Shown: piece after piece, positions 4,099 to 31,154 of the stretch
Layout: each line of letters begins with the position of its first letter
Position numbering within the stretch: the first letter of the stretch is position 1
Assembly: GCF_021800405.1 (NCBI RefSeq)
Contig: NZ_CP084550.1
Coordinates: forward strand, 1,798,001-1,862,000
Direction: 5' to 3'
DNA from: Arthrobacter sp. FW306-07-I
GTDB lineage: Bacteria; Actinomycetota; Actinomycetes; Actinomycetales; Micrococcaceae
Length of the DNA stretch: 64,000 bases
Program-made: the position numbers and the translations under genes
The notes under the pieces: generated by a model
What the model was told of the DNA's origin: nothing
Databases searched by the model: none
Seen by the model: the letters and a program-made list of their open reading frames with translations, nothing else

Positions 4099-5001
4099 CT
4101 AGGCCCGGCCGTCCTTGGCCGTCACCCAGCGTGCCGCCTCCTCCAGGCTCCCGTGCTGCCACCGGAAACCGGCGGATGACAGCGCTGCCGGCTCCATCCG
4201 CTGGCTGAACAGCAGGAGCTCCTCGCCCAGGCCCGGCATCACTGTGCGCAGCACAGGCGCCGGAACGCGCAACACGGCAGGCCGGTGCAGGGCGCGGGCC
4301 AGGGCCGCGACAATCGTGTTGACGTCAGCCTGCTCAGGTGCGGTCACGTTGACCGGACCGGAGACCGTGGAGTCGAGGAGGAAGAGGAAGGCAGCCGAAA
4401 CATCCGGAAGGGTGACCCAAGGCCAGAACTGGCGTCCGTTGCCAAAGGGCCCGCCAACGCCCAGCCGCAGCAGTGGCAGCAGCTTGCCAAGCGCTCCGCC
4501 CGAACGGCTGAAGACCACCCCCGTGCGTGCCAGCACCACGCGCACACCTGCCGGCGCCGCCAACGCCGCCTGCTCCCACTCGACGCAGATCTGCGCCAAG
4601 GTGCCGGAACCTGCAGGTGCGTCCTCTCGCAGGACCGTATTGCCGGCGTCGCCATAGTAACCAGACGCCGACTGGCTGATGAAGGTTTTCGGCGGCGTAT
4701 CCATGCGCGCCATGGCCTGCACCAAGGTCCTGGTGGGGCCCAACCGGGAGCTGAACAGCTCCTCCACCCGCTTCCGCGTCCAGGGCCTGTCGCCGATGCC
4801 GGCGCCGGAAAGGTTGACCACGGCGTCGGCGCCGGCCAGTGACGAGGGGTCGAGGACGCCCGCCGCCGGATCCCAGCGGACTTCGCTTGCGCCGGCAGGT
4901 GGCCGCCGGACCAGGGTCACTACGGAGTGGCCTGCATCGCGAAAGGCTGCGGACATGGAGGTGCCGATGAGCCCGGAGGCGCCGGCCATGACAATGTGCA
5001 T
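4099..5001 (-). CDS. TIGR01777 family NAD(P)-dependent epimerase-like protein (YfcH type)
   Basis: 300 residues, the usual family length. The N-terminus MHIVMAGASGLIGTSM contains the GxxGxxG nucleotide-binding loop of extended short-chain dehydrogenases, and the YxxxG region reads SASGYYGDAG (about 112-121). The C-terminal DUF1731 segment (RVPAPVLRTVMPGLGEELL, then SSAGFRW) is typical of TIGR01777. The substrate is unknown. From memory, the M. tuberculosis counterpart Rv2216 lies between dlaT and lipB, the same neighbourhood as here, hinting at an old link with lipoate or 2-oxoacid metabolism. Start ATG at 5001; divergent from the tricorn gene, 73 bases away. Confidence 0.88.
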   Translation of the reverse strand: MHIVMAGASGLIGTSMSAAFRDAGHSVVTLVRRPPAGASEVRWDPAAGVLDPSSLAGADAVVNLSGAGIGDRPWTRKRVEELFSSRLGPTRTLVQAMARMDTPPKTFISQSASGYYGDAGNTVLREDAPAGSGTLAQICVEWEQAALAAPAGVRVVLARTGVVFSRSGGALGKLLPLLRLGVGGPFGNGRQFWPWVTLPDVSAAFLFLLDSTVSGPVNVTAPEQADVNTIVAALARALHRPAVLRVPAPVLRTVMPGLGEELLLFSQRMEPAALSSAGFRWQHGSLEEAARWVTAKDGRA

Positions 5002-5062
5002 GGTCCATCACACCACGCCAGCGCGGGTTGTGTACCTCCCGCGGGGCAGGGGAGGGGTTGAC

Positions 5063-5068
5063 TATGAT
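5063..5068 (+). promoter_or_regulatory. -10 box (TATGAT) of the tricorn protease gene
   Basis: TATGAT followed by exactly six bases and the ATG at 5075, so transcription should start at the A of the start codon (leaderless). The G-rich stretch at 5045-5057 is too far from the ATG to act as a Shine-Dalgarno. Confidence 0.6.
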
Positions 5069-5074
5069 CGAACG

Positions 5075-8000
5075 ATGACCTCTTCGAGCTACTTCCGTTT
5101 CCCGCATTTGCACGGCGATCTGGTCACTTTCGTGGCCGAGGACGACGTGTGGATTGCGCCCCTGGACGGCGGCCGTGCCTGGCGCGTCTCGTCGCTCCAG
5201 CTGCCTGCCCGCAACCCGCGATTTACCCCCGACGGCAAGCGGCTGGTGTGGACCGTGGTGCAGGGAACGGCTCCGGAGGTGGTGTCAGCAGAGGTCGACG
5301 GCGGCGGGTACAGGCAGCTCACGTACTTTGGCCACAGCACTACAAAGGTCAAGGGATTCACCGCCGGGGGCGCCGTGGTGGTCACCAGCGCCTTCCGCCA
5401 GGCTGAAAGCCGGCACACCCACGCCTACAGCGTTCCGTTTGAAGGCGGCTGGGCGCAGGAACTTCCCTATGGCCCGGTGGAGTCAGTGGCGTATGGACCC
5501 GAAGTAGGCGATGAACGCCCCGTGGTGCTGGCGAGCGTGCTGTCCCGGGAACCGGCGTGGTGGAAGCGGTACCGCGGCGGCACGGCCGGGAAGCTGTGGA
5601 TCGACCGCGACGGCAACGGTGAGTTCGAGCGCCTCCTTCCCGACCTTGACGGCAACCTCACCGACCCCCTCTGGGTGGACGGCCGGATCGCCTTCCTGTC
5701 CGATCACGAAGGCTACGGCAATCTGTACTCGGTGCTTCCCGACGGAAAAGACCTGCGCCGGCACACCGACCACCAGGACTTCTACGTCCGGCACGCCGCC
5801 ACCGACGGCAAACGCGTCATCTTCGAGTCCGCCGGTGAACTCTGGGTACTCCCGGACCTCGGCTCGGAGGCGGAAAAGCTGGATATCACCCTCGGCTCGG
5901 CCTCGCAGACCAGGCGTCCTGCCCTTCTCGACGCCGTCAAGCACCTGGGCGCCGTTGCCCCGGACACAACAGGGGCCGCCAGCGCGGTGGAATCGCACGG
6001 GACCATTTCCTGGCTGCGGCACAAGGATGGGCCGTCCCGGATCGTCGAGGCCACGCCCGGAGTGCGGGGCCGCTTGCCCAGGCCCCTCGGCGACGGCCGG
6101 ATCGCCTACATCGCCGATCACGGCGGTGTTGAAGCCATCCACATCAAGGACATCGCAGCGCCCGTCCCGCACAACTCTGCCCAGGTGGCGGCAGGGAGCG
6201 GCAAGTCCGGCGCTCCAGCCGTAGCCCCCGATTCCCCGGACGCGGAAAAGCAGGACATCCAGGGGCTGGAAACGGTCAGCCTGCCCCAGCCCGTTCCTGC
6301 AGCCGGGGCTGCGGTGCTGGCGGGAAGTGCAGCACACGCTCCGGCAGACGACGAGCAGCAGGCCGACGTTGCGCCACAGGATACGGCCACCGCCGCGGAG
6401 GCCCTGCCGCCCGCAGTAGAGGCAGGCATCACTGTTCCCACGCCCTCGCGCGCCAGTTCCCTCGAACCCAGCCCGGATGGCCGGTGGATTGCCCTTGGGA
6501 CCTCCTTCGGCGACGTGCACGTCCTGGACACCCGCAGCGGCCACCTCAGCCCGGTGGCCAGCATCGGTGAAGGCAGCATTTCCGAATTGGCATGGTCGGC
6601 GGACTCCCGCTGGCTGGCGTGGTCCGAGCCCGTCACGTCCTTTGGCTCGCGCAGCCGGCTTCGGCTGGCCACTGTGGAGCAGCTCGACGCCGACCCCGTG
6701 GACGTCACCGACGGCCGCTTCCGCGATGCCTCACCGGCCTTCACTCCAGACGGCAAGTTCCTCGCCTTCCTGTCCAACCGCAGCTTCGACCCCGTGTACG
6801 ACGGGCATTCGTTCGACCTCTCCTTCCCCAGCCCCATCAAGCCGTACCTGGTGGCACTCGCCGCTGACACGCCGTCGCCCTTCGGTCCATCGGTTGACCC
6901 CGCCGGCGGGGAGCCGGAAGCGGACGCGGAGGGCACGGACGAGGGCGAGGCAGGGGAGAAGGACACTCCTGGCGTCCGAGTGGATGCGGAGGGCCTGGCG
7001 CACCGCGTCATCGGAGTTCCGGTTCCGCAGGGCAACTACAGCTCGCTGGCGGCCGTCGACGGCGCACTCCTCTGGCTCGATTCCGTCCTGGCAGGTGTGA
7101 CCGGCGACGGAAAGGCCAGCCAGGAGGACAAGGACGCCCGCCCAGGCCTGGTCCGCTACGACATCGTCCGGCGGAAGCAGACCACGCTGGTCGATGCAGT
7201 TGACAGCTACCGGCTGACCGGTGACCGCAGCAAGGTGGTGCTGGTTTCCGACAAGCAGGTGACCGTGGTGCCTTCGGACGCCAAGGCGGACGAGGAATCG
7301 GGCAAGCTGGTCAAGGTTGACCTGGGCCGGATCCGCGTCCTGCTGGACCCGCTCAGCGTCTGGGGCCAGGCATTCGACGAAGCCTGGCGGCTGCAGCGCG
7401 ACTTCTTCTGGACCGAAGACATGGCCGGGCAGGACTGGGATTCCATCCACGCCCGTTACCGCCCCATCGTGGAACGGCTGGGTTCGCATGACGACCTGGT
7501 GGACCTGCTGTGGGAACTGCACGGCGAACTGGGGACGTCCCACGCCTACGTTCGTCCGGCCGCCGTCACCGAACGCGGCAGCCGTGGACAGGGCCGCCTC
7601 GGTGCCGACCTCGCGCACACGGCCAATGGCTGGGAAATCACCCGGATCCTGGCCGGCGAGTCCTCCGATCCGCTGGCTACCTCCCCGTTGACCAGGCCCG
7701 GTGTAGGCGCCAAAGCGGGGGACATCCTGCTGGCGATTGACGGTGTCCCGCTGTCCGAAAGCACCACCCCGGCCATGCAGCTGGTGGGAGCGGCAGGCCG
7801 CGCGGTGGAGCTGACCCTCCTCAACGGTTCCGGGCACGGTGCTGCCGAAGGCACCCAACGCCGGGTCGCCGTCGTGCCTGTCAAGGATGAAGAGCGCCTC
7901 CGCTACCAGGAATGGGTCGCCGGCAACCGGCGGACCGTCCGTGAAGCCTCCAACGGAACCTTTGGCTACCTGCACATCCCGGACATGATGGCCAACGGCT

Positions 8001-9243: not shown

Positions 9244-9597
9244 TTACTGCCAGATGGTGGCAATGGCGATGTTAAGCAGCGCCAGGCCACCGACGCCGTG
9301 CGCGAGTCCGGTGGAGACGGGCTGCCCGTTCTTGACCTTGCGTGAGCCGATGACCGCCAGGACTGCCACCACGATGGCGATGACGAACTTGATGCCCAGC
9401 TTGGCGTAGTTCGGATTGGAGTCCGGCAGGAACGGGAGGATGCCCATCATGGCGATGCCGGTGAGCAGCTGCAGGAAGGCGCCGTCACGCTGGCGCGGAT
9501 GCACGGTGGGGGTCCGCATCGTGGCAATCCAGTAGCCCACGATCATGGCGGCCCCGACGACGTGCAGGAAGACCAGGATGTTGAAGAGAATGTTCAT
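9244..9597 (-). CDS. Small four-helix membrane protein, unknown function
   Basis: 117 residues with four predicted membrane helices (about 4-25, 41-57, 67-85 and 97-115). Helix 1 contains FLHVVGAAMIVGYW; an LHxxGA pattern of this sort occurs in some haem- or copper-related membrane proteins, but no family can be assigned. The start ATG at 9597 lacks a Shine-Dalgarno and has a TAAGCT box six bases upstream (leaderless). Just behind that box is a palindrome almost identical to the three BlaI-type operators of the cyd region, which suggests joint control with respiration genes (inference). Confidence 0.75.
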   Translation of the reverse strand: MNILFNILVFLHVVGAAMIVGYWIATMRTPTVHPRQRDGAFLQLLTGIAMMGILPFLPDSNPNYAKLGIKFVIAIVVAVLAVIGSRKVKNGQPVSTGLAHGVGGLALLNIAIATIWQ

Positions 9598-9603
9598 GGC
9601 TCC

Positions 9604-9635
9604 AGCTTAGCCAGTCATTTCTACCGCCTGTAGCA
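9604..9635 (-). promoter_or_regulatory. Leaderless promoter with BlaI-like operator
   Basis: On the reverse strand TAAGCT (9604-9609) ends six bases before the ATG at 9597. Immediately upstream, 9619-9635 reads TTCTAC-N5-GTAGCA, one base different from the TTCTAC-N5-GTAGAA sites at 24866-24995. The palindrome lies between the -10 and -35 positions, where a repressor would block polymerase. Confidence 0.5.
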
Positions 9636-23384: not shown

Positions 23385-24374
23385 TCAGCCGAGCAGTCCG
23401 GGAACCAGCAGAAGTGCGGTGGGCAGCGCGAGCAGCAGGACGCTGCCTGCCATGACGGCGCTGCGGACGGCGGAAGGAAGCGGAGGCTGGGGCGTCAGCA
23501 GGCGGCTGACCCGGGAAGCTGCGGTACGGACAGCGTCCGAGCCGGCTCCGCCTGATGCTGACTCAAGCCCGGACAGGGCCAGCGTGGGCGAGGAGGGCCG
23601 GACACCGGCGCCGGCCTCCGCGGCTGAACCGCTGGCCACGATGGCGATGGCCTTGATGAGGGTGGCTTTGCTCTCGGTCCGCAGGGCCACGTCATCGGCC
23701 AGCATCTCGATGAGGGAGTTCACGGACTCCTGGGCAAGCCGGGTGGTGGGCAGCCACGGGAGGGCCTGCCGCCACGCGGCGAAGGCCCAGAGCAGGAGGT
23801 GGTGCCGCTGGTTGAGGTGGGCGTTCTCGTGAATCAGCACCGCCCGAAGCTCTGCCGGTTCGAGCGCCGCCATCAGGCCGTCCGATAGCACCGTCACCGA
23901 ACGCGCGCCGCCCGGAAGGCAGTACGCCACGGGTGAGTCGTGGCTGATGACCAGGGTTCCGGCGTCCTGGCCGGAGGGTGACGCCAGCAGGGCCAGCATT
24001 TCGCGGTGCCGCCGCCGCTGGCGCTGGATTTTGTAGTACGTCAGCAGCAGGGTGAACACCAGATGGACGGAGAGCAGGGCAGCAGCGGACAGGGCAAAGA
24101 TGTGCCAGAACCCCAGCGCGGTGGTGGGCGCGTTGAAAAATACCATGCCGGCGAGGCCGCGGAGGCCTGCAATCAGGTTGTCTCCAATAGGTTCCAGGCC
24201 GTAGACCAGCATGGCGCCGATCATTGACAACCCACCTGCAAGCGCGATCGCCTGCCACAACAGCATGGCCGTGAACGGCGACCTGGCCGGCCACTGGGCC
24301 CGGGACAGGAGGATCGGCACCGGCCACGCCAGGATTATCGCAAGGACCGCCAGCAGGTATGAGGCCCAGAACAT
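23385..24374 (-). CDS. M56 membrane metalloprotease (BlaR1/MecR1-like)
   Basis: 329 residues with three or four N-terminal membrane helices (about 2-22, 34-58, 72-80 and 90-113), a cytoplasmic/peripheral zinc-protease part with H182-E-N-A-H186 (an HExxH motif), and a C-terminal helix (about 304-326). It has no penicillin-binding sensor domain, unlike full BlaR1. M56 proteins cleave or inactivate the partner BlaI repressor after a signal. The partner gene lies six bases upstream, so the two form an operon facing cydA. M. tuberculosis Rv1846c-Rv1845c (BlaI-BlaR type) is organised the same way, and BlaI there is reported to control respiration-linked genes. Confidence 0.88.
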   Translation of the reverse strand: MFWASYLLAVLAIILAWPVPILLSRAQWPARSPFTAMLLWQAIALAGGLSMIGAMLVYGLEPIGDNLIAGLRGLAGMVFFNAPTTALGFWHIFALSAAALLSVHLVFTLLLTYYKIQRQRRRHREMLALLASPSGQDAGTLVISHDSPVAYCLPGGARSVTVLSDGLMAALEPAELRAVLIHENAHLNQRHHLLLWAFAAWRQALPWLPTTRLAQESVNSLIEMLADDVALRTESKATLIKAIAIVASGSAAEAGAGVRPSSPTLALSGLESASGGAGSDAVRTAASRVSRLLTPQPPLPSAVRSAVMAGSVLLLALPTALLLVPGLLG

Positions 24375-24380
24375 GGTGTG

Positions 24381-24764
24381 CTAGACGCGGCCCAGCAGTT
24401 TGCGCAGCGTCTCGGCTTCACCTTCGGACACCGACCCGATGAAGCGGGCCAGGACGGCCTCGCGGTCCGGTGCTGACCCGAGGACCTCATGCATGAGTTC
24501 CGCGGTGTGGTCTGCGCGGCTGGACACCGCCTGGTAGCGGTGGGGACGGGTGCCGCGTTCGCGTTCCACCAGCCCCTTCTTCTCCAGGCGTGAAAGTACG
24601 GTCAGTACCGTTGTGACGGCCAGTTCCTTGCCTTCATGGCCCGGCCCGCCCTGTGCCGCCGACGTGCGCGCCAACTGGTCCCTCAGGGTATTGGCCGTAG
24701 CCGCTTCCTGGCCCGCCCAGAGCAGGTCCATGACCGCCCGTTCCAGTTCACCAAGACTAGCCAT
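24381..24764 (-). CDS. blaI: BlaI/MecI-family transcriptional repressor
   Basis: 127 residues. Winged helix-turn-helix DNA-binding domain (about 1-80; LGELERAVMDLLWAGQEAATANTLRD, then TTVLTVLSRLEKKGLVERERGTRPHRY) followed by a helical dimerisation part. BlaI proteins bind dyad operators and leave DNA when cut by their M56 partner. ATG 24764 follows AAAGGA. A perfect palindrome at 24865-24883 lies in its own promoter region and two more lie before cydA, so it probably represses itself and the cyd operon. Binding is inferred from position and symmetry. Confidence 0.9.
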   Translation of the reverse strand: MASLGELERAVMDLLWAGQEAATANTLRDQLARTSAAQGGPGHEGKELAVTTVLTVLSRLEKKGLVERERGTRPHRYQAVSSRADHTAELMHEVLGSAPDREAVLARFIGSVSEGEAETLRKLLGRV

Positions 24765-24864
24765 TTCACTTTTCCTTTATTTCCCCGCGCCGCGCACTTT
24801 CGGTGCACGGTTACGTCCCACTGTTGTTCAACTACAGAACTAATTTACCCCGAAACCGGCCAAC

Positions 24865-24883
24865 GTTCTACATGGAGTAGAAC
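24865..24883. promoter_or_regulatory. Candidate BlaI operator 1 (blaI promoter)
   Basis: Perfect dyad GTTCTAC-ATGGA-GTAGAAC, about 100 bases before the blaI start. On the reverse strand it overlaps the -35 position of a possible blaI promoter whose -10 would be TAAATT, 18 bases further on. Confidence 0.65.
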
Positions 24884-24954
24884 ATCTGGCGCGGCGTGGC
24901 CCGACGCGGGATGCTAGGGGAGGGCGGGAGGGTTTTCATCCGCCGTCAAGGATG

Positions 24955-24971
24955 TTCTACACTTTGTAGAA
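24955..24971. promoter_or_regulatory. Candidate BlaI operator 2 (cydA promoter)
   Basis: Perfect dyad TTCTAC-ACTTT-GTAGAA, centred 62 bases before the cydA ATG. Same consensus as operators 1 and 3; its centre is 24 bases from that of operator 3, just over two helical turns. Confidence 0.65.
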
Positions 24972-24978
24972 GTTGGAG

Positions 24979-24995
24979 TTCTACGAAGCGTAGAA
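24979..24995. promoter_or_regulatory. Candidate BlaI operator 3 (cydA promoter)
   Basis: Perfect dyad TTCTAC-GAAGC-GTAGAA, centred 38 bases before the cydA ATG, at or near the expected transcription start. No clear -10/-35 pair can be named in this stretch. Confidence 0.65.
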
Positions 24996-25024
24996 AACTG
25001 CATCGGCTAACAGTAGGGACCGCC

Positions 25025-26629
25025 ATGGACGCCTTGGAAATCGCACGCTGGCAATTCGGAATCACCACCGTCTACCACTTCATGATGGTGCCGCTGACCA
25101 TCGGCCTGGGCCTCGTGGTGGCCGTCATCCAGACAGCCTGGTACCGCACCGGCAAGCCCGAATACCTGCGCATGACCAAGTTCTGGGGAAAGCTGTTCCT
25201 CATCAACTTCATCATGGGCGTGGCCACGGGCATCGTGCAGGAGTTCCAGTTCGGCATGGCCTGGAGCGAGTACAGCCGCTTCGTGGGGGATGTGTTCGGG
25301 GCGCCCCTGGCCCTGGAAGCGCTCCTGGCCTTCTTCGTGGAGTCCACCTTCCTCGGCCTGTGGATCTTCGGCTGGAAGCAGCTCAAGCCGGCCATCCACC
25401 TGGCCTGCCTCTGGGTGGCCGTCATCGGATCAGCACTCTCCGCCTACTTCATCATCGTGGCGAACAGCTGGATGCAGCACCCGGTAGGGGTGGAAATGAT
25501 CAACGGCCGGCCCGTCATGACCGACGCCTGGGCCGTCTTCACCAACAACACCGCGCTTGTGGCCGTTCCGCACACCCTGTTCGGCGCCCTCGCCGTGGCA
25601 GGCGGCTTCCTCCTGGGCATCGCCTGGTACCACCTGTGGCGGCGGCGGCACGACGGCGTTGACACCGTGGGTGCAGACGGCCGGGTGATCCCCGGTGAAG
25701 ACGTCCGCATTCCCGGCCGCGACCGCGCCGATCACAACGTCTGGATCCGTTCCCTGCGCATCGGTGCCGTGGTCGCCATGATCTCGTTCGCCGGCACCGC
25801 CGTCACCGGCGACCTCCAGGGCAAGCTGATGTTCCAGCAGCAGCCCATGAAGATGGCCGCGGCGGAGGCCGCCTGCCACGACGGTACCGGCTTCTCCGTC
25901 CTGAGCGTCGGGAACGTCGGCTCCAGGAACTGCGACGACGTGGTGGCCGTAATCGAGGTTCCGGGCATCCTGTCCTTCCTGGCCAAGGGCGACTTCACCA
26001 CCGAGGTCAAGGGCGTCAACACCCTGCTGCCGGAGTACCAGGCCAATTACGGAACCCACCTGCCGGACAACCCGATCTACGGCGAGCGCGCAGGCCAGGA
26101 AATCCAGTACGTCCCTGTCATGGAAGTCACCTACTGGGGCTTCCGGATGATGATCGGCTTTGGCGGCCTCGCCGCCCTGGCAGCACTGGTGGCCCTCTGG
26201 CTCACCCGCAAGGGGACCGTGCCGGAATCCCGGTGGCTCATGCGTCTGGCAGTCTTCGGCATCCTGGCCCCCTTCGGCGCCAATGCCGCCGGCTGGATCT
26301 TCACCGAGATGGGCCGCCAGCCCTTCGTCGTGGCGCCCAACCCGGACCCCAGCGGAATCGACCAGGTGTTCATGTTCACCGCCGCCGCCGTATCCCCGGG
26401 TGTCTCCGCAGGGGAACTCATTGCCTCGCTGGTGGCACTGACCGCCGTGTACGCCGTCCTGCTGGTGGTGGAAGTCAAGCTGCTGGTCAAGTACATCCGC
26501 GGGGGTGTGGTGTCCGCGATGCCGGAACTCGGCCACGCACCGGCGGACGAGAACGAGGACGAAACACCCGGTTCCGGCGGCAACACCGGGCCCAAACCTG
26601 CCGACGACGTCCTGGCCTTCGCCTACTAG
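25025..26629 (+). CDS. cydA: Cytochrome bd ubiquinol/menaquinol oxidase subunit I
   Basis: 534 residues, nine or so membrane helices. Subunit I of the high-affinity bd oxidase carries the haems and the quinol site. Visible ligands: H18 in TTVYHFMMV (haem of the bd site), H183 in VPHTLFG and M375 or M376 in FRMMIG (haem b558), and the GRQPF motif near 429. The quinol loop is short, as in most non-enteric enzymes. The start is ATG 25025 (MDALEIARWQFG) with TAGGGA upstream; the open frame back to 24896 runs through the operators and is not coding. First gene of cydA-cydB-cydDC, controlled by the divergent BlaI-type operators (inference). Confidence 0.96.
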   Translation: MDALEIARWQFGITTVYHFMMVPLTIGLGLVVAVIQTAWYRTGKPEYLRMTKFWGKLFLINFIMGVATGIVQEFQFGMAWSEYSRFVGDVFGAPLALEALLAFFVESTFLGLWIFGWKQLKPAIHLACLWVAVIGSALSAYFIIVANSWMQHPVGVEMINGRPVMTDAWAVFTNNTALVAVPHTLFGALAVAGGFLLGIAWYHLWRRRHDGVDTVGADGRVIPGEDVRIPGRDRADHNVWIRSLRIGAVVAMISFAGTAVTGDLQGKLMFQQQPMKMAAAEAACHDGTGFSVLSVGNVGSRNCDDVVAVIEVPGILSFLAKGDFTTEVKGVNTLLPEYQANYGTHLPDNPIYGERAGQEIQYVPVMEVTYWGFRMMIGFGGLAALAALVALWLTRKGTVPESRWLMRLAVFGILAPFGANAAGWIFTEMGRQPFVVAPNPDPSGIDQVFMFTAAAVSPGVSAGELIASLVALTAVYAVLLVVEVKLLVKYIRGGVVSAMPELGHAPADENEDETPGSGGNTGPKPADDVLAFAY

Positions 26630-26644
26630 CAGAGGAAACAAACA

Positions 26645-27694
26645 ATGGAACTGCTTCCCACCATATGGTTCATCGCCATCGCGGTGCTGTGGACCGGCTA
26701 CCTCTTCCTGGAAGGCTTCGACCTGGGGGTCGGGATGCTGATGAAGCTCTTCGCCCGCAACAACACCGAGCGCCGGGTACTGCTGAACACCATCGGGCCT
26801 GTGTGGGACGGCAACGAGGTGTGGCTGCTGACCGCCGGCGGCGCCACCTTCGCCGCCTTTCCCCTCTGGTACGCCTCGCTGTTCTCCGCGCTCTACCTCC
26901 CCCTCCTGGTGGTGCTGCTGGCCCTGATCTTCCGGGCGGTCGCATTCGAATACCGGGGCAAAGTGGACACGGACAGCTGGCGGAACCGCTGGGACTGGGC
27001 CATCGCGCTGGGCTCCTTCTTCGCGGCGTTCGGCGTGGGCGCCGCCCTGGCCCTCACCACCACCGGGCTTCCGCTGAATGCCAACGGCGACCGGGAAGGC
27101 GGCCCCATGGCCTGGTTCAGCGGCTACGCCCTGCTGGGCGGCCTTGCCGTCGTGGGCTTCTCACTCCTCCATGCCCTGGCCTTCCTGGCCCTCAAGACCG
27201 ACGGCGACGTCCGCCACCGTGCCCGCCGGTGGTTCGTGCGGCTGCTGCCGGTCCTGCTCCTGCCCATCGCCGCATGGGCCCTTGCCATCCAGTTCCTGGA
27301 CGGCAAGCCGTGGACCTGGGCCGCCGTCGTACTGGCCGTTGGCGCTGCCGCCACCGCCTGGCTGCTGGCCCGGAACGGCTCCGAGGGCAGGGCCTTCCTG
27401 GCCCTTGGCGCCTTCCTGATCCTGGGCACCGCATCCATCTTCGGGGCCGTGTTCCCGGTGGTGCTGCCCTCCACGCTGGACAGCGCCTTTGACCTCACCA
27501 TCTCCAACGCTTCATCCTCGGACTACACCCTGGGGCTGATGAGCATTGTGGCGGCCTTTGGGCTTCCCCTGGTGATCGCCTACCAGGCCTGGACCTACTG
27601 GGTGTTCCGCCGCCGCGTCAGCGCTGCGCACATTCCCGAAGCCCACAGCTTCCTCCCTGCCATCGCCGCCAAAGCCTTCACCACCAAGGGCTGA
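26645..27694 (+). CDS. cydB: Cytochrome bd oxidase subunit II
   Basis: 349 residues, about eight or nine membrane helices. The N-terminus ([23 protein letters not shown], about 8-30) is the family signature, followed by [20 protein letters not shown]. It completes the bd oxidase with CydA. The start codon follows AGAGGAAA, and the gene begins 15 bases after cydA, so the two are co-transcribed. The C-terminal [13 protein letters not shown] segment ends the last helix. Confidence 0.96.
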
Positions 27695-27695
27695 C

Positions 27696-30600
27696 GTGCG
27701 GCCAACCTTCCCCACAGGCCCGGCCACCCGGTCCGCAATCTACTGGCTGGGACTGCTGGCCGCGCTCAAGGCCCTGTCCCTGATCCTCATCGGCCAGGCG
27801 GTGGCCTCCGTCCTGGCCGGCCTCGCCGAGGGGAACGAGGCCTGGGCACAGCAGCTCACTCCAGGTGCCGTCGGCGTCGTCCTCCGCTCCCTGACCGTCT
27901 GGGGGCAGGCCGTCGCCGCCCGCCGCGCAGCCCTGGGGGTCAAGGAGGAGCTTCGCGCCGAACTGTTGGAGCGGGCCTTGCGAAGCGGGGTGCGGGGAAC
28001 CGGTCCCGGCGACGGCGGCCTGGCCGTCCTGGCCACCCGCGGCCTGGATGCGCTGGACAGCTACTACACCCAGTTCCTCCCGGCGCTGGTCAACTGCGCC
28101 GCCGTTCCGCTGTTGCTCGGGGCCCGGATCCTCTTCGCAGACTGGGTCAGCGCGCTGGTCATCGTGCTGACGGTCCCGTTGATCCCGGTGTTCATGGTGC
28201 TGATCGGCCGCTACACCGAAGACAACGTGCGGCAGGCCCAGGCCTCGCTGGCGCGGCTGTCCGGCCACATGCTGGAGCTCGCCAAGGGCCTGCCGGTCCT
28301 GGTGGGACTGGGCCGGGCCACCGCGCAGCGCAAGGCCCTGGAGGAGATCTCCGAGGAATACCGCTCGCGCACCATGGGCACCCTCCGGACCGCGTTCCTG
28401 TCCGCCCTGGCCCTGGAACTCATCGCCACCATCTCGGTGGCCGTGGTGGCGGTCTTCATTGGCGTCCGGCTGGTCCACGGCGGCATGCCGCTGGAGGCGG
28501 GCCTGCTGGCACTCCTCCTGGCCCCGGACTGCTACCTTCCGCTGCGGGAACTGGGCACCGCCCACCACGCCAGCGACGACGGCCGGGTGGCGCTCGCGGA
28601 AACAGCCGCCGTGACGGATGCGCCTGAACCGGCGCCGTTGCCGGCCGCCAAGGCCGGCAGGCCGGGCGCGCCGCTGGAGGTCACCGCCCTCACGGTGACC
28701 TATCCCGGGCGGTCCGGAGCCGCCGTCGGACCCCTCTCCTTCACCGCACCCCAGGACAGGATCACCGCCCTGGACGGGCCCAGCGGCGCCGGCAAGAGCA
28801 CTGTCCTGGGTGTACTGGCCGGCACCATCGGCAACGGCGGCGAACCGGATGCGGCAGGAACCAGCATTACCGGGTACATCAACGGCCTGGACCGTGGCGC
28901 CGTGGCCTGGGTGCCGCAGCATCCGGTCATGGTCGCCGGAAAGGTCCTGGACGAGGTGCTGCTGTACCTCTCACCGGACGCCAGGCACGGCCCGGACCGG
29001 TTCACGGCCGAAAGCGCCGCCCGCGGCTGCCTGGAACGCGCAGGAGCCGGCCACCTCGCCGGGAAGCACCAGGCGGAGCTGAGCCCGGGTGAGCTGCGGC
29101 GCGTGGCACTGGCCCGAGGCCTGGCCCGGATCGACGCTGGTGCCACCCTCCTGCTGCTGGACGAGCCCACGGCGCACCTGGACGACGCCTCGGCCGTCAT
29201 CGTCGAGAACGCCATCCGGCGGCTCCGCGGCGAGGTCACCGTGATCCTGGTGGCCCACAACCAGCGCACCCGGCAGCTGGCAGACGTCCTGGTGCCGGTC
29301 GGCCCTGCCGGTACGACACCGGAGGTACCGCATGCCGGCATTTCCGCGCTCCTGGCAGACAACGCCGGCACCGCCGGCAGCACAAGGTCGAATGGCACGC
29401 CCGCCACAGACACCGGCGTCGACGGCGGAACGGACGCCAGGCGCGTCAGGCCCGTCCGCCCCGCCCGGAGTGCCGCTCCTAGTGCCGATCCCCGGGCCGC
29501 CCGCCTCCTGGCCGCGCTCCTGGCACCGGTCCGGGGCAAGTTCGCGGCGGCGGCCTTCGTCGGCACCCTGGCGGCCGTCTTCGCCGTCGCGCTTTCCGGC
29601 CTGTCTGGCTGGCTCATCATCCGGGCCAGCGAGCAGCCGCCCATCCTCTACCTCCTGACGGCCATTGTCGGCGTCCGGTTCTTTGGCATCGGCCGCGCCG
29701 TGTTCCGCTATTGGGAGCGGCTGCTGCTGCACGATGCCGTGTTCGCCGCCCTGACCCGCCTGCGCGGACGGCTGTGGGAGTCCCTGAGCCGCAGGGCGCT
29801 GTCGCTGCGCCGGCTCCTGCAGGGCGGCAACGTGCTGGGTACGGTGATCGACGACGTCGACACCGTCCGCGACCTCCTGCCGCGCGTGGTCCTGCCGCCG
29901 GTCACGGCGCTTGCGGTGTCCGTCCTTGCCGTGGCCGCCACCGGAACCTTGGTGCCGGCCGCCCTTCCCGCAGTGGTTGGGGCTGCGGTCAGTGGCCTGC
30001 TGCTGGCGCCCGCAGCCGCCCTGTGGGGTGACCGGAAGTCCGCCAGTGCCGAGCAGGCCCTGCGCTCCGGCGTCCTGCGCCGCGTCACGGCAGCCCTGGA
30101 CGCACGGGCCGAACTGCACGCCAACGGTGTGGCGCCCCGCGTCCTTGACGCATTGCTGGCCGAGGACCGGGACGCCACCCGCGCCTCCCAGCGGTCCGCC
30201 TGGGCCGACGGGCTGGGACACGCCGTCGCCACGGCCGCCTGCGGTGCTGCCGCGTTGGCTGCAGCCTGGCTGGCCGGGCCCGAAGTCCTTGCAGCCAGGG
30301 TTGCCCCGGCCATCGCGGCCGTGGTGGTCCTCCTGCTGCTGGCGCTGGTGGAACCCTTCGCAGCAATGACGACGGCGGTGCGCCAGTTCCCGGCGCTCCG
30401 TGCCGTCATGCGCCGGGTGGGGGAGTCGGGGGCGCTTGAAGAAGGCGGCGACGCGTCCGACGGGTTGCAGCCCGTTCCCGCCAGGGCCGGCGGTGCGCCA
30501 GGCATCGAACTGGTGGACCTGGCTGCGGCCTGGCCGGGTGGCTCCCCGGTCTTCTCGGGCGTGGATGCGGAGGCAGCACCCGGGCGCTGGCTGGCGGTCA

Positions 30601-31154
30601 CCGGACCCTCAGGCTCCGGCAAATCCACGCTGCTCTCGGTGCTGCTGGGTTTCCTGCCGCCCGCTTCCGGCCAGGTGAGGGTGACCGGCCGGGCGGCGTG
30701 GTGCCCGCAGGATGCACACCTGTTCGACTCCACCATCCGCGGCAACCTGCTGCTGGGCAGGCCGTCCACCGGCGGCGCCTCTGCGGGACGTGACGAAGAG
30801 CTGGACGCCGTCCTGGCCGCCGTCGGACTGGCCGGGCTGGTTGGCCGGCTGCCGGCGGGGCTGGACACGCGGATCGGCCCGGGGGGTGCTTTCCTGAGCG
30901 GCGGCGAGCGCCAGCGCCTGGCTGTGGCCCGGACCCTGCTGACCGGTGCGGAGGTGATCCTGCTGGATGAGCCCACCGCCCACCTGGACGCGGAGTCCGC
31001 CGCCGCCATGCTCGCGGACCTGCGTTCCGGGCTGCGGGACCGCACGGTGGTGCTGGTCACCCACAACCCGGCGGACATCCAGGCCGGTGACGGGCGCCTT
31101 GACCTGTCGGAATTCTCGGGACAGGCGCGGGCACCGCTGGCGCGTTTGCGCTGA
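27696..31154 (+). CDS. cydDC: Fused CydDC ABC exporter (thiol/haem-type, bd oxidase assembly)
   Basis: 1152 residues: one polypeptide holding both half-transporters that are separate (CydD and CydC) in E. coli. Order: TM domain 1 (about 10-295), ATPase 1 (about 325-545; Walker A K367 in GPSGAGKST, signature LSPGE), a variable linker (about 560-600), TM domain 2 (about 603-895), ATPase 2 (about 925-1140; Walker A K976 in GPSGSGKST, signature LSGGE, then [10 protein letters not shown]). CydDC exports reduced thiols and is needed for haem-ligated bd oxidase. The LSPGE signature in site 1 suggests unequal ATPase sites. GTG start one base after cydB's stop, so translationally coupled. The fusion is common in Actinobacteria. 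Confidence 0.93.

Follow-up and report, generated by a model that had tools for sequence, protein, structure and literature searches.

Genes and operators at the blaI-cyd locus

The window, by which we mean the whole 64,000-nucleotide stretch of Arthrobacter sp. FW306-07-I DNA that was analyzed, contains a blaI-type repressor gene (24381-24764, minus strand) that faces a cytochrome bd operon. Its product, a winged-helix protein of 127 amino acids, belongs to Pfam family PF03965 (Penicillinase_R), which it matches at 74.8 bits (the cut-off is 22.6), and a sequence search of solved structures returned 2g9w, MecI, and BlaI as relatives. The nearest of them, with an E value of 3.3e-28, is PDB 2g9w, which we take to be BlaI (Rv1846c) of the Mycobacterium tuberculosis BlaI/BlaR (Rv1845c) pair. 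A second Penicillinase_R match in the same genome (G000:C1:536476-536625, locus L137) is weak and partial, at 23.3 bits against the same cut-off of 22.6. Only 6 bases separate blaI from the gene that follows it on the minus strand (23385-24374), which encodes a BlaR-like membrane zinc protease of 329 amino acids with an HENAH motif; because of this short gap, the two genes probably form one operon with the protease second.

The facing genes lie on the plus strand and comprise cydA (25025-26629), for cytochrome bd subunit I (PF01654, E value of 2.6e-153), and cydB (26645-27694), for subunit II (PF02322 and TIGR00203). Immediately 3' of cydB, a single reading frame of 1152 amino acids (27696-31154, plus strand) fuses cydD and cydC, with TIGR02857 spanning residues 12-533 and TIGR02868 spanning residues 605-1125.

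The sequence-only reading of this DNA had placed three perfect TTCTAC-N5-GTAGAA dyads between blaI and cydA, and they are present at exactly the coordinates it gave. O1 (24866-24882) stands 101 bases away from the start codon of blaI, O2 (24955-24971) and O3 (24979-24995) lie 53 and 29 bases, respectively, from that of cydA, and O3 starts 24 bases after O2, as had been claimed. O1 sits at blaI's own promoter, the place of a dyad operator in BlaI/MecI systems, and an operator on this side is retained where cydA is absent. Elsewhere in the window, a one-mismatch copy, TTCTACCGCCTGTAGCA (9619-9635), lies 21 bases from the start codon of a gene for a 117-amino-acid membrane protein without a Pfam match (9244-9597, minus strand). 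Orthologous genes in other genomes have perfect operators, and the gene is a probable further target of BlaI. These orthologs come from other genera, with perfect operators at loci L156 and L217 and, by reading, at L145 and L158 as well. The 117-amino-acid protein gene also adjoins a 2-oxoglutarate dehydrogenase E2-like gene.

Among 63 loci left after dereplication, the motif TANNNT occupies a fixed position within O2 in 59 (as TACACT in 54) and the corresponding position within O3 in 7. A TTGACA-like element (at least four of six bases) is commonest at a spacer of 16-19 bases from it, in 32 of the 63 loci, with other bins holding 1-15. The likely -10 element of cydA is therefore TACACT at 24958-24963 on the plus strand, inside O2. 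Since a strict sigma-70 scan of 24700-25060 returned no promoter, this assignment comes from conservation. In such an arrangement, O2 probably covers the core promoter and O3 the 5' end of the transcript, in keeping with repression.

In Streptomyces and M. smegmatis, the same actinobacterial operon is under the control of Rex and CRP (PMC7739888); those regulators are unrelated to BlaI in both protein family and operator. CRP-type control was considered here and set aside, as the blaI-cydA interval contains no CRP-type site and such sites are not enriched in the window.

Conservation of the divergent arrangement

Operator conservation in other Arthrobacter cyd loci had been suggested as a check, and the operators prove to be conserved. 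We read 110 loci, made up of the best 30 of a family search, which includes the source genome, and the best 80 of 166 named loci from Arthrobacter, Pseudarthrobacter, and related records; some species may be represented in both sets. In 107 of the 110, cydA is divergent from blaI and operators are kept: three perfect copies in 95 loci, two in 10, and two plus a mismatched one in 2. The 3 loci without cydA all keep a single operator on the blaI side. A protease-gene relative stands beside blaI in every one of the 110.

Spacing is conserved too. Of the 107 divergent loci, 105 have their two cydA operators spaced by 23-26 bases, and in the other 2 the far site is the mismatched one. Between the near operator and the cydA start there are 9-58 bases in these 107 loci, and where all three operators are perfect (95 loci), O1 is 55-115 bases away from the blaI start. 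The more distant genomes G016 and G064 have their near operator farther from cydA, at 202 and 78 bases, respectively. An alignment of 42 dereplicated intergenic regions, drawn from those 81 (of 107) that are 235-300 bases long, has its long invariant runs at the operators and at the bases next to O2, while most other columns vary.

Operators across the genome and their dependence on BlaI

A search of the genome for the dyad had also been proposed, together with the question of whether hits cluster at respiratory genes; largely, they do. In the 4.56-Mb genome, TTCTAC-N{2,14}-GTAGAA has 8 matches over the 13 spacers tested, and all 8 have the 5-base spacer; a reversed control pattern over the same spacers gives 7 matches, 3 of them at spacer 5. 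Across 120 genomes of the family, the perfect pattern matches 565 times versus 50 for the reversed control. With up to two mismatches, the pattern is not enriched over its control (80 versus 187), so two-mismatch matches were dropped and sites with zero or one mismatch were retained.

Three of the eight perfect sites are those between blaI and cydA. The other five lie upstream of the following: the flavohemoglobin gene hmp, which adjoins an Rrf2-type regulator gene; hemQ-hemH; a cytochrome c maturation operon (phosphatase-like, TlpA-like, ResB, and CcsA-type genes) with YceI on the opposite side; a flavin-oxidase-like gene that faces a permease-like gene; and a gene for a small membrane protein. 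Neither a beta-lactamase nor a PBP2a gene was recognized, by Pfam or by reading, beside any of the eight. The genome also has eight one-mismatch copies, two of them inside reading frames and six upstream of genes, namely, sucC (at 196 bases), a membrane protein gene, the 117-amino-acid protein gene in the window, an ABC-ctaA operon, qcrC, and the gene before atpB. The names atpI, truncated hemoglobin, permease, phosphatase, and small membrane protein were given by position or by reading rather than from a Pfam result. The set includes the cydA and atp targets of an M. tuberculosis-type regulon, with two perfect sites at the former and, at the latter, a site that has one mismatch here and is perfect in genome G008.

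The presence of the sites depends on that of BlaI. Among the 120 family genomes, 97 encode BlaI at an E value of 1e-30 or better; all 97 have at least one perfect site and 95 have at least two, for 540 sites versus 46 for the reversed control. Another 11 genomes have a weaker BlaI match and 24 sites among them, with one genome lacking any. The remaining 12 have no BlaI match, and 11 of these have no perfect site, while the other has one. A cydA match is found in 8 of the 12 BlaI-less genomes (7 near full length and one short), and there the best site within 300 bases upstream of cydA has at least three mismatches. In genome G035, blaI and cydA are on different contigs and operators are kept at both.

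In one genus, g3, a BlaI match is absent from all six sampled genomes (G002, G033, G059, G081, G101, and G118), and cydA is near full length in five of them, with only a short match in G033, so that cyd is mostly present where the regulator is absent.

It might be supposed that the dyads belong to another regulator and that their nearness to blaI is incidental, given that hmp adjoins an Rrf2-type regulator gene and that binding by this BlaI is a prediction. We find this hardly credible, for the sites are missing from nearly all BlaI-less genomes, stay with blaI when cydA is elsewhere, and, as described below, change with the recognition helix of BlaI.

The predicted regulon in related genera

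For a wider view of targets, we used the source genome and 18 genomes from 18 further genera. Their 128 perfect sites include 119 that were classified, 33 at blaI or cydA and 86 elsewhere. Targets among the 86 are led by hmp (13 sites), hemQ (11), a membrane protein of the type found at locus L130 (9), and a copper-associated membrane gene (6). These are followed by an ABC gene of a ctaA-type operon (5), flavin-oxidase-type genes (5), cytochrome c maturation genes (4), hemA, CopC, and truncated hemoglobin (3 each), the 117-amino-acid protein and ctaC (2 each), and qcrC, atpI, SURF1, sdhC, LDH, and CRP (1 each); 14 of the 86 sites have no recognized target. By our count, 54 of the 86 sites serve genes for heme, cytochromes, oxidase assembly, copper, NO, or ATP synthase. 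Assigned targets that are not obviously respiratory are the flavin-oxidase type (5), the membrane protein (9), LDH (1), and CRP (1). Recurrence between genera is marked, with hmp in 13 of 19 genomes, hemQ in 11, and the ctaA-type operon in 5. Judged from these sequences, the predicted regulon reaches far wider than cyd.

Some of these labels are soft. Copper-associated genes were named from DUF1775 or PCuAC neighbors or from 29-34% identity, and truncated hemoglobin was named by reading. Also, the queries for ctaC, SURF1, sdhC, CopC, truncated hemoglobin, copper-associated genes, LDH, and CRP came from the same loci that they named, so a 100% row for one of them serves as a label, not as an independent recovery.

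L130 encodes two small membrane proteins that have no firm family assignment (4519-4890 and 4987-5577). The first of them has a perfect operator in 9 of the 19 genomes and may for that reason be a respiratory part. For the flavin oxidase-like (Pyridox_ox_2) gene at L127 (3543-3977), 5 of the 19 genomes have an operator at a distance of 10-69 bases.

The distance from site to start codon varies widely, from about zero (two values are slightly negative, at extrapolated starts) to 257 bases, and a single mode of action is consequently not certain. Such variation would suit a BlaI that acts as an activator, or with mixed effects, at distant targets. This is, in our judgment, very unlikely: members of the family act as repressors in the systems described in PMC12565901 and PMC9834060, and O2 covers what is likely the cydA -10 element.

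The pair could instead answer to cell-envelope damage, with the protease or BlaI sensing wall turnover products and respiration being adjusted downstream. Two reports make this worth weighing. First, a peptidoglycan dipeptide binds BlaI/MecI directly in Bacillus licheniformis (PMC3305447). Second, amoxicillin-clavulanate induces both blaI-blaR and cydAB in M. tuberculosis (PMC5473688). However, no beta-lactamase or known wall-synthesis gene is among the assigned targets in the 19-genome set, where 14 sites are unassigned and the site counted for sdhC (L247) is nearer, by reading, to a mannose-1-phosphate guanylyltransferase-like (sugar-nucleotide) gene, at 66 bases. The protease, moreover, has no penicillin-binding domain. 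We therefore regard an envelope signal as fairly unlikely.

BlaI-cyd linkage beyond the family and operator-helix covariation

In the wider class, BlaI is found at an E value of 1e-12 or better in 151 of 256 genomes, and we read 48 loci from outside the family (28 best and 20 hand-picked). Again, cydA is often the neighbor: it is divergent from blaI in 27 of the 48, which come from seven families (f4, 8/8; f6, 1/1; f24, 11/19; f26, 3/3; f33, 2/4; f35, 1/1; f45, 1/1), and lies downstream on the same strand at one f41 locus. There is no cydA match at the other 20, and none of the loci from f2, f3, f10, f23, and f25 has cydA beside blaI. Meanwhile, a protease-gene relative is beside blaI at all but one (L305) of the 48.

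In f24 (L268-L270, L273-L279, and L285), the protein divergent from blaI is CydA-like and 28-33% identical to the source CydA, and its gene has two or three perfect operators at L278, L279, and L285; going by this identity, it may be a different bd-type oxidase. Six genomes of f4 and f24, each with at least one site, hold 12 perfect sites in all: 8 at blaI-cyd, 1 at hmp, 1 at hemE, and 2 without a recognized gene. As the sites are mostly at blaI-cyd, the regulon looks small outside the family.

Two genomes of f10 have an operator of another type, TAC[T/G]AC-N5-GT[A/C]GTA, the first at blaI and cydA and the second at cydA and atpB. The first genome is mycobacteria-like, and its BlaI closely resembles PDB 2g9w along its length. 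The TAC-type pattern has 17 matches in five genomes versus 8 for a reversed control, and several of the matches lack a recognized target; the count includes G295, in which BlaI is not established and the one match has no recognized gene. A TAC-type operator also lies 28 bases upstream of the gene for a 120-amino-acid protein in f26 (L328) that resembles the 117-amino-acid protein by eye.

These operator types track the protein. A comparison of 25 BlaI proteins, 23 of which had an operator by the rule used, places Leu54 in the recognition helix of clades with TTCTAC operators (f1, f4, and f24) and Met54 in that of clades with TACTAC or TACGAC and some TCCTAC halves (f10, f23, f26, f33, f35, and f45). 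A perfect TTCTAC-N5-GTAGAA is found in none of 12 Met54-clade genomes. By this comparison, the operator sequence changes with the BlaI recognition helix, through few independent events, since the comparisons are at the level of clades. A tree of 53 BlaI proteins puts the cyd link on both sides of its midpoint, with 8 changes against a shuffled mean of 15.9; its support is too poor for it to date the link.

The membrane protease and a predicted BlaI cut site

The partner of BlaI had been described as an M56 protein without a penicillin-binding domain. The second half of that description holds, as does the HENAH site: there is no Pfam match to such a sensor domain in the 329 residues and no SxxK or K[TS]G motif. 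The family assignment is less firm, with Peptidase_M56 scoring 21.5 bits, under its cut-off of 31, and Peptidase_M48 scoring 38.1 bits, above its cut-off of 20.3; NCBI labels many of the homologs M56 family metallopeptidase. Catalytic motifs like those of BlaR1 are in place, namely, H182ENAH and E223MLAD227 (E-x-x-[AC]-D), and the H-to-E spacing of 41 equals that of BlaR1, whose zinc ligands are H201 and E242 (PMC9834060). Hydropathy indicates four hydrophobic stretches. A structure model was too poor for use (mean pLDDT of 44), and a sequence search of solved structures gave no match to the protease up to an E value of 1.

In BlaI itself, Phe108 is invariant in all 11 proteins compared and aligns with MecI Phe102, so that Arg107-Phe108 corresponds to MecI residues 101-102. 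PMC9834060 gives the Asn101-Phe102 bond as the site at which Staphylococcus aureus BlaI is cut; the P1 residue is thus Arg here versus Asn there.

A reading in which BlaI represses and is released by a small ligand (e.g., heme, a metal, or a redox change) would dispense with cleavage by the protease. It draws on a target set that is rich in heme and copper genes and on a transposon screen in which M. tuberculosis blaR was needed for heme use (PMC7058343), a link that runs via BlaR. We give it little credence, however, because a protease relative accompanies blaI at 110 of 110 close and 47 of 48 other loci, and HEXXH plus E-x-x-[AC]-D is intact in all 120 protease homologs listed, 119 of which have HENAH.

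A model for respiratory control by BlaI and a sensorless protease

We think it likely that BlaI and the sensorless, BlaR1-like protease make up an autoregulated system that is dedicated to respiration and whose regulon is derepressed by BlaI cleavage. In this model, BlaI dimers would bind TTCTAC-N5-GTAGAA. Through O1, they would control the blaI-protease operon, and the pair bound at O2, on the -10 element of cydA, and at O3, just past the start point, would block RNA polymerase. The same repressor would act in the source and related genomes on a wider set, including hmp, hemQ-hemH, hemA, qcrCAB, ctaA, ctaC, and genes for cytochrome c maturation, copper delivery, atp, and sucC. We infer that the protease, once activated, most likely by respiratory or membrane state, would cut BlaI between Arg107 and Phe108 and so derepress the regulon. 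The trigger is probably linked to respiration, because the predicted targets are cytochrome bd and many other respiration genes.

Likenesses to the BlaR1-BlaI and MecR1-MecI systems of S. aureus and B. licheniformis include the winged-helix repressor, dyad operators, autoregulation (predicted here), a neighboring gluzincin membrane protease with HEXXH and ExxxD, and Phe at the cut-site equivalent. In contrast, the system described here has no penicillin-binding sensor and no beta-lactamase or PBP2a target that we found, and its predicted targets are mostly respiratory.

The closest parallel is in M. tuberculosis. There, BlaI is reported to bind the promoters of cytochrome bd and ATP synthase (PMC5473688, citing Sala 2009), and mycobacterial BlaR likewise lacks an extracellular sensor domain, its trigger being described as unknown in PMC5473688. 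Other sources add an electrophoretic mobility shift assay in which BlaI bound to the Rv1303-atp promoter (PMC12565901) and place blaI within the regulon of the iron regulator IdeR (PMC7924339). BlaI and cydA are named together in a gene table and in a review, where BlaI is a regulator of the atp operon; the search behind this did not catch the spelling cydAB. The use of BlaI on cydAB, which the sequence-only reading had called unfamiliar, therefore has a precedent, because the M. tuberculosis binding is in print.

Nevertheless, the two systems differ. In M. tuberculosis, blaI is apart from cyd (Rv1846c versus Rv1623c), and cydA is absent at all four f10 loci. Also, blaC is a BlaI target there, and the operator in two M. 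tuberculosis-related genomes is of the TAC type instead of TTCTAC-N5-GTAGAA. The heme, bc1, hmp, and copper targets predicted here find no mention for M. tuberculosis BlaI in the available portions of PMC5473688, PMC12565901, PMC7058343, and PMC7924339. We found no report of such a regulon outside mycobacteria in a literature search that covered mostly titles and the starts of abstracts, and in that same literature we found no precedent for the conserved blaI-cyd linkage, the wider regulon, or the operator-helix covariation.

A broader proposal is tentative, and we hold it to be possible but somewhat doubtful. The original role of actinobacterial BlaI and its sensorless protease, and a widespread one, might be the control of respiration, with cytochrome bd at the center. 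The pair would read the state of the respiratory membrane and free its regulon by proteolysis, a regulon that in Micrococcaceae would span both terminal oxidase branches, heme, copper, NO defense, and ATP synthase. Control of beta-lactamase in mycobacteria would then be a later add-on.

Implications

These results give a family familiar from antibiotic resistance a predicted role in regulating respiration. They also single out membrane proteins of no known function as predicted respiratory parts. The predicted regulon sharpens the question of what the signal is: a conserved target list in which genes for respiration, heme, copper, and NO predominate indicates where to seek the trigger of a BlaR that has no sensor domain, and soil bacteria offer a ready reporter for that search in a cydA promoter with two operators.
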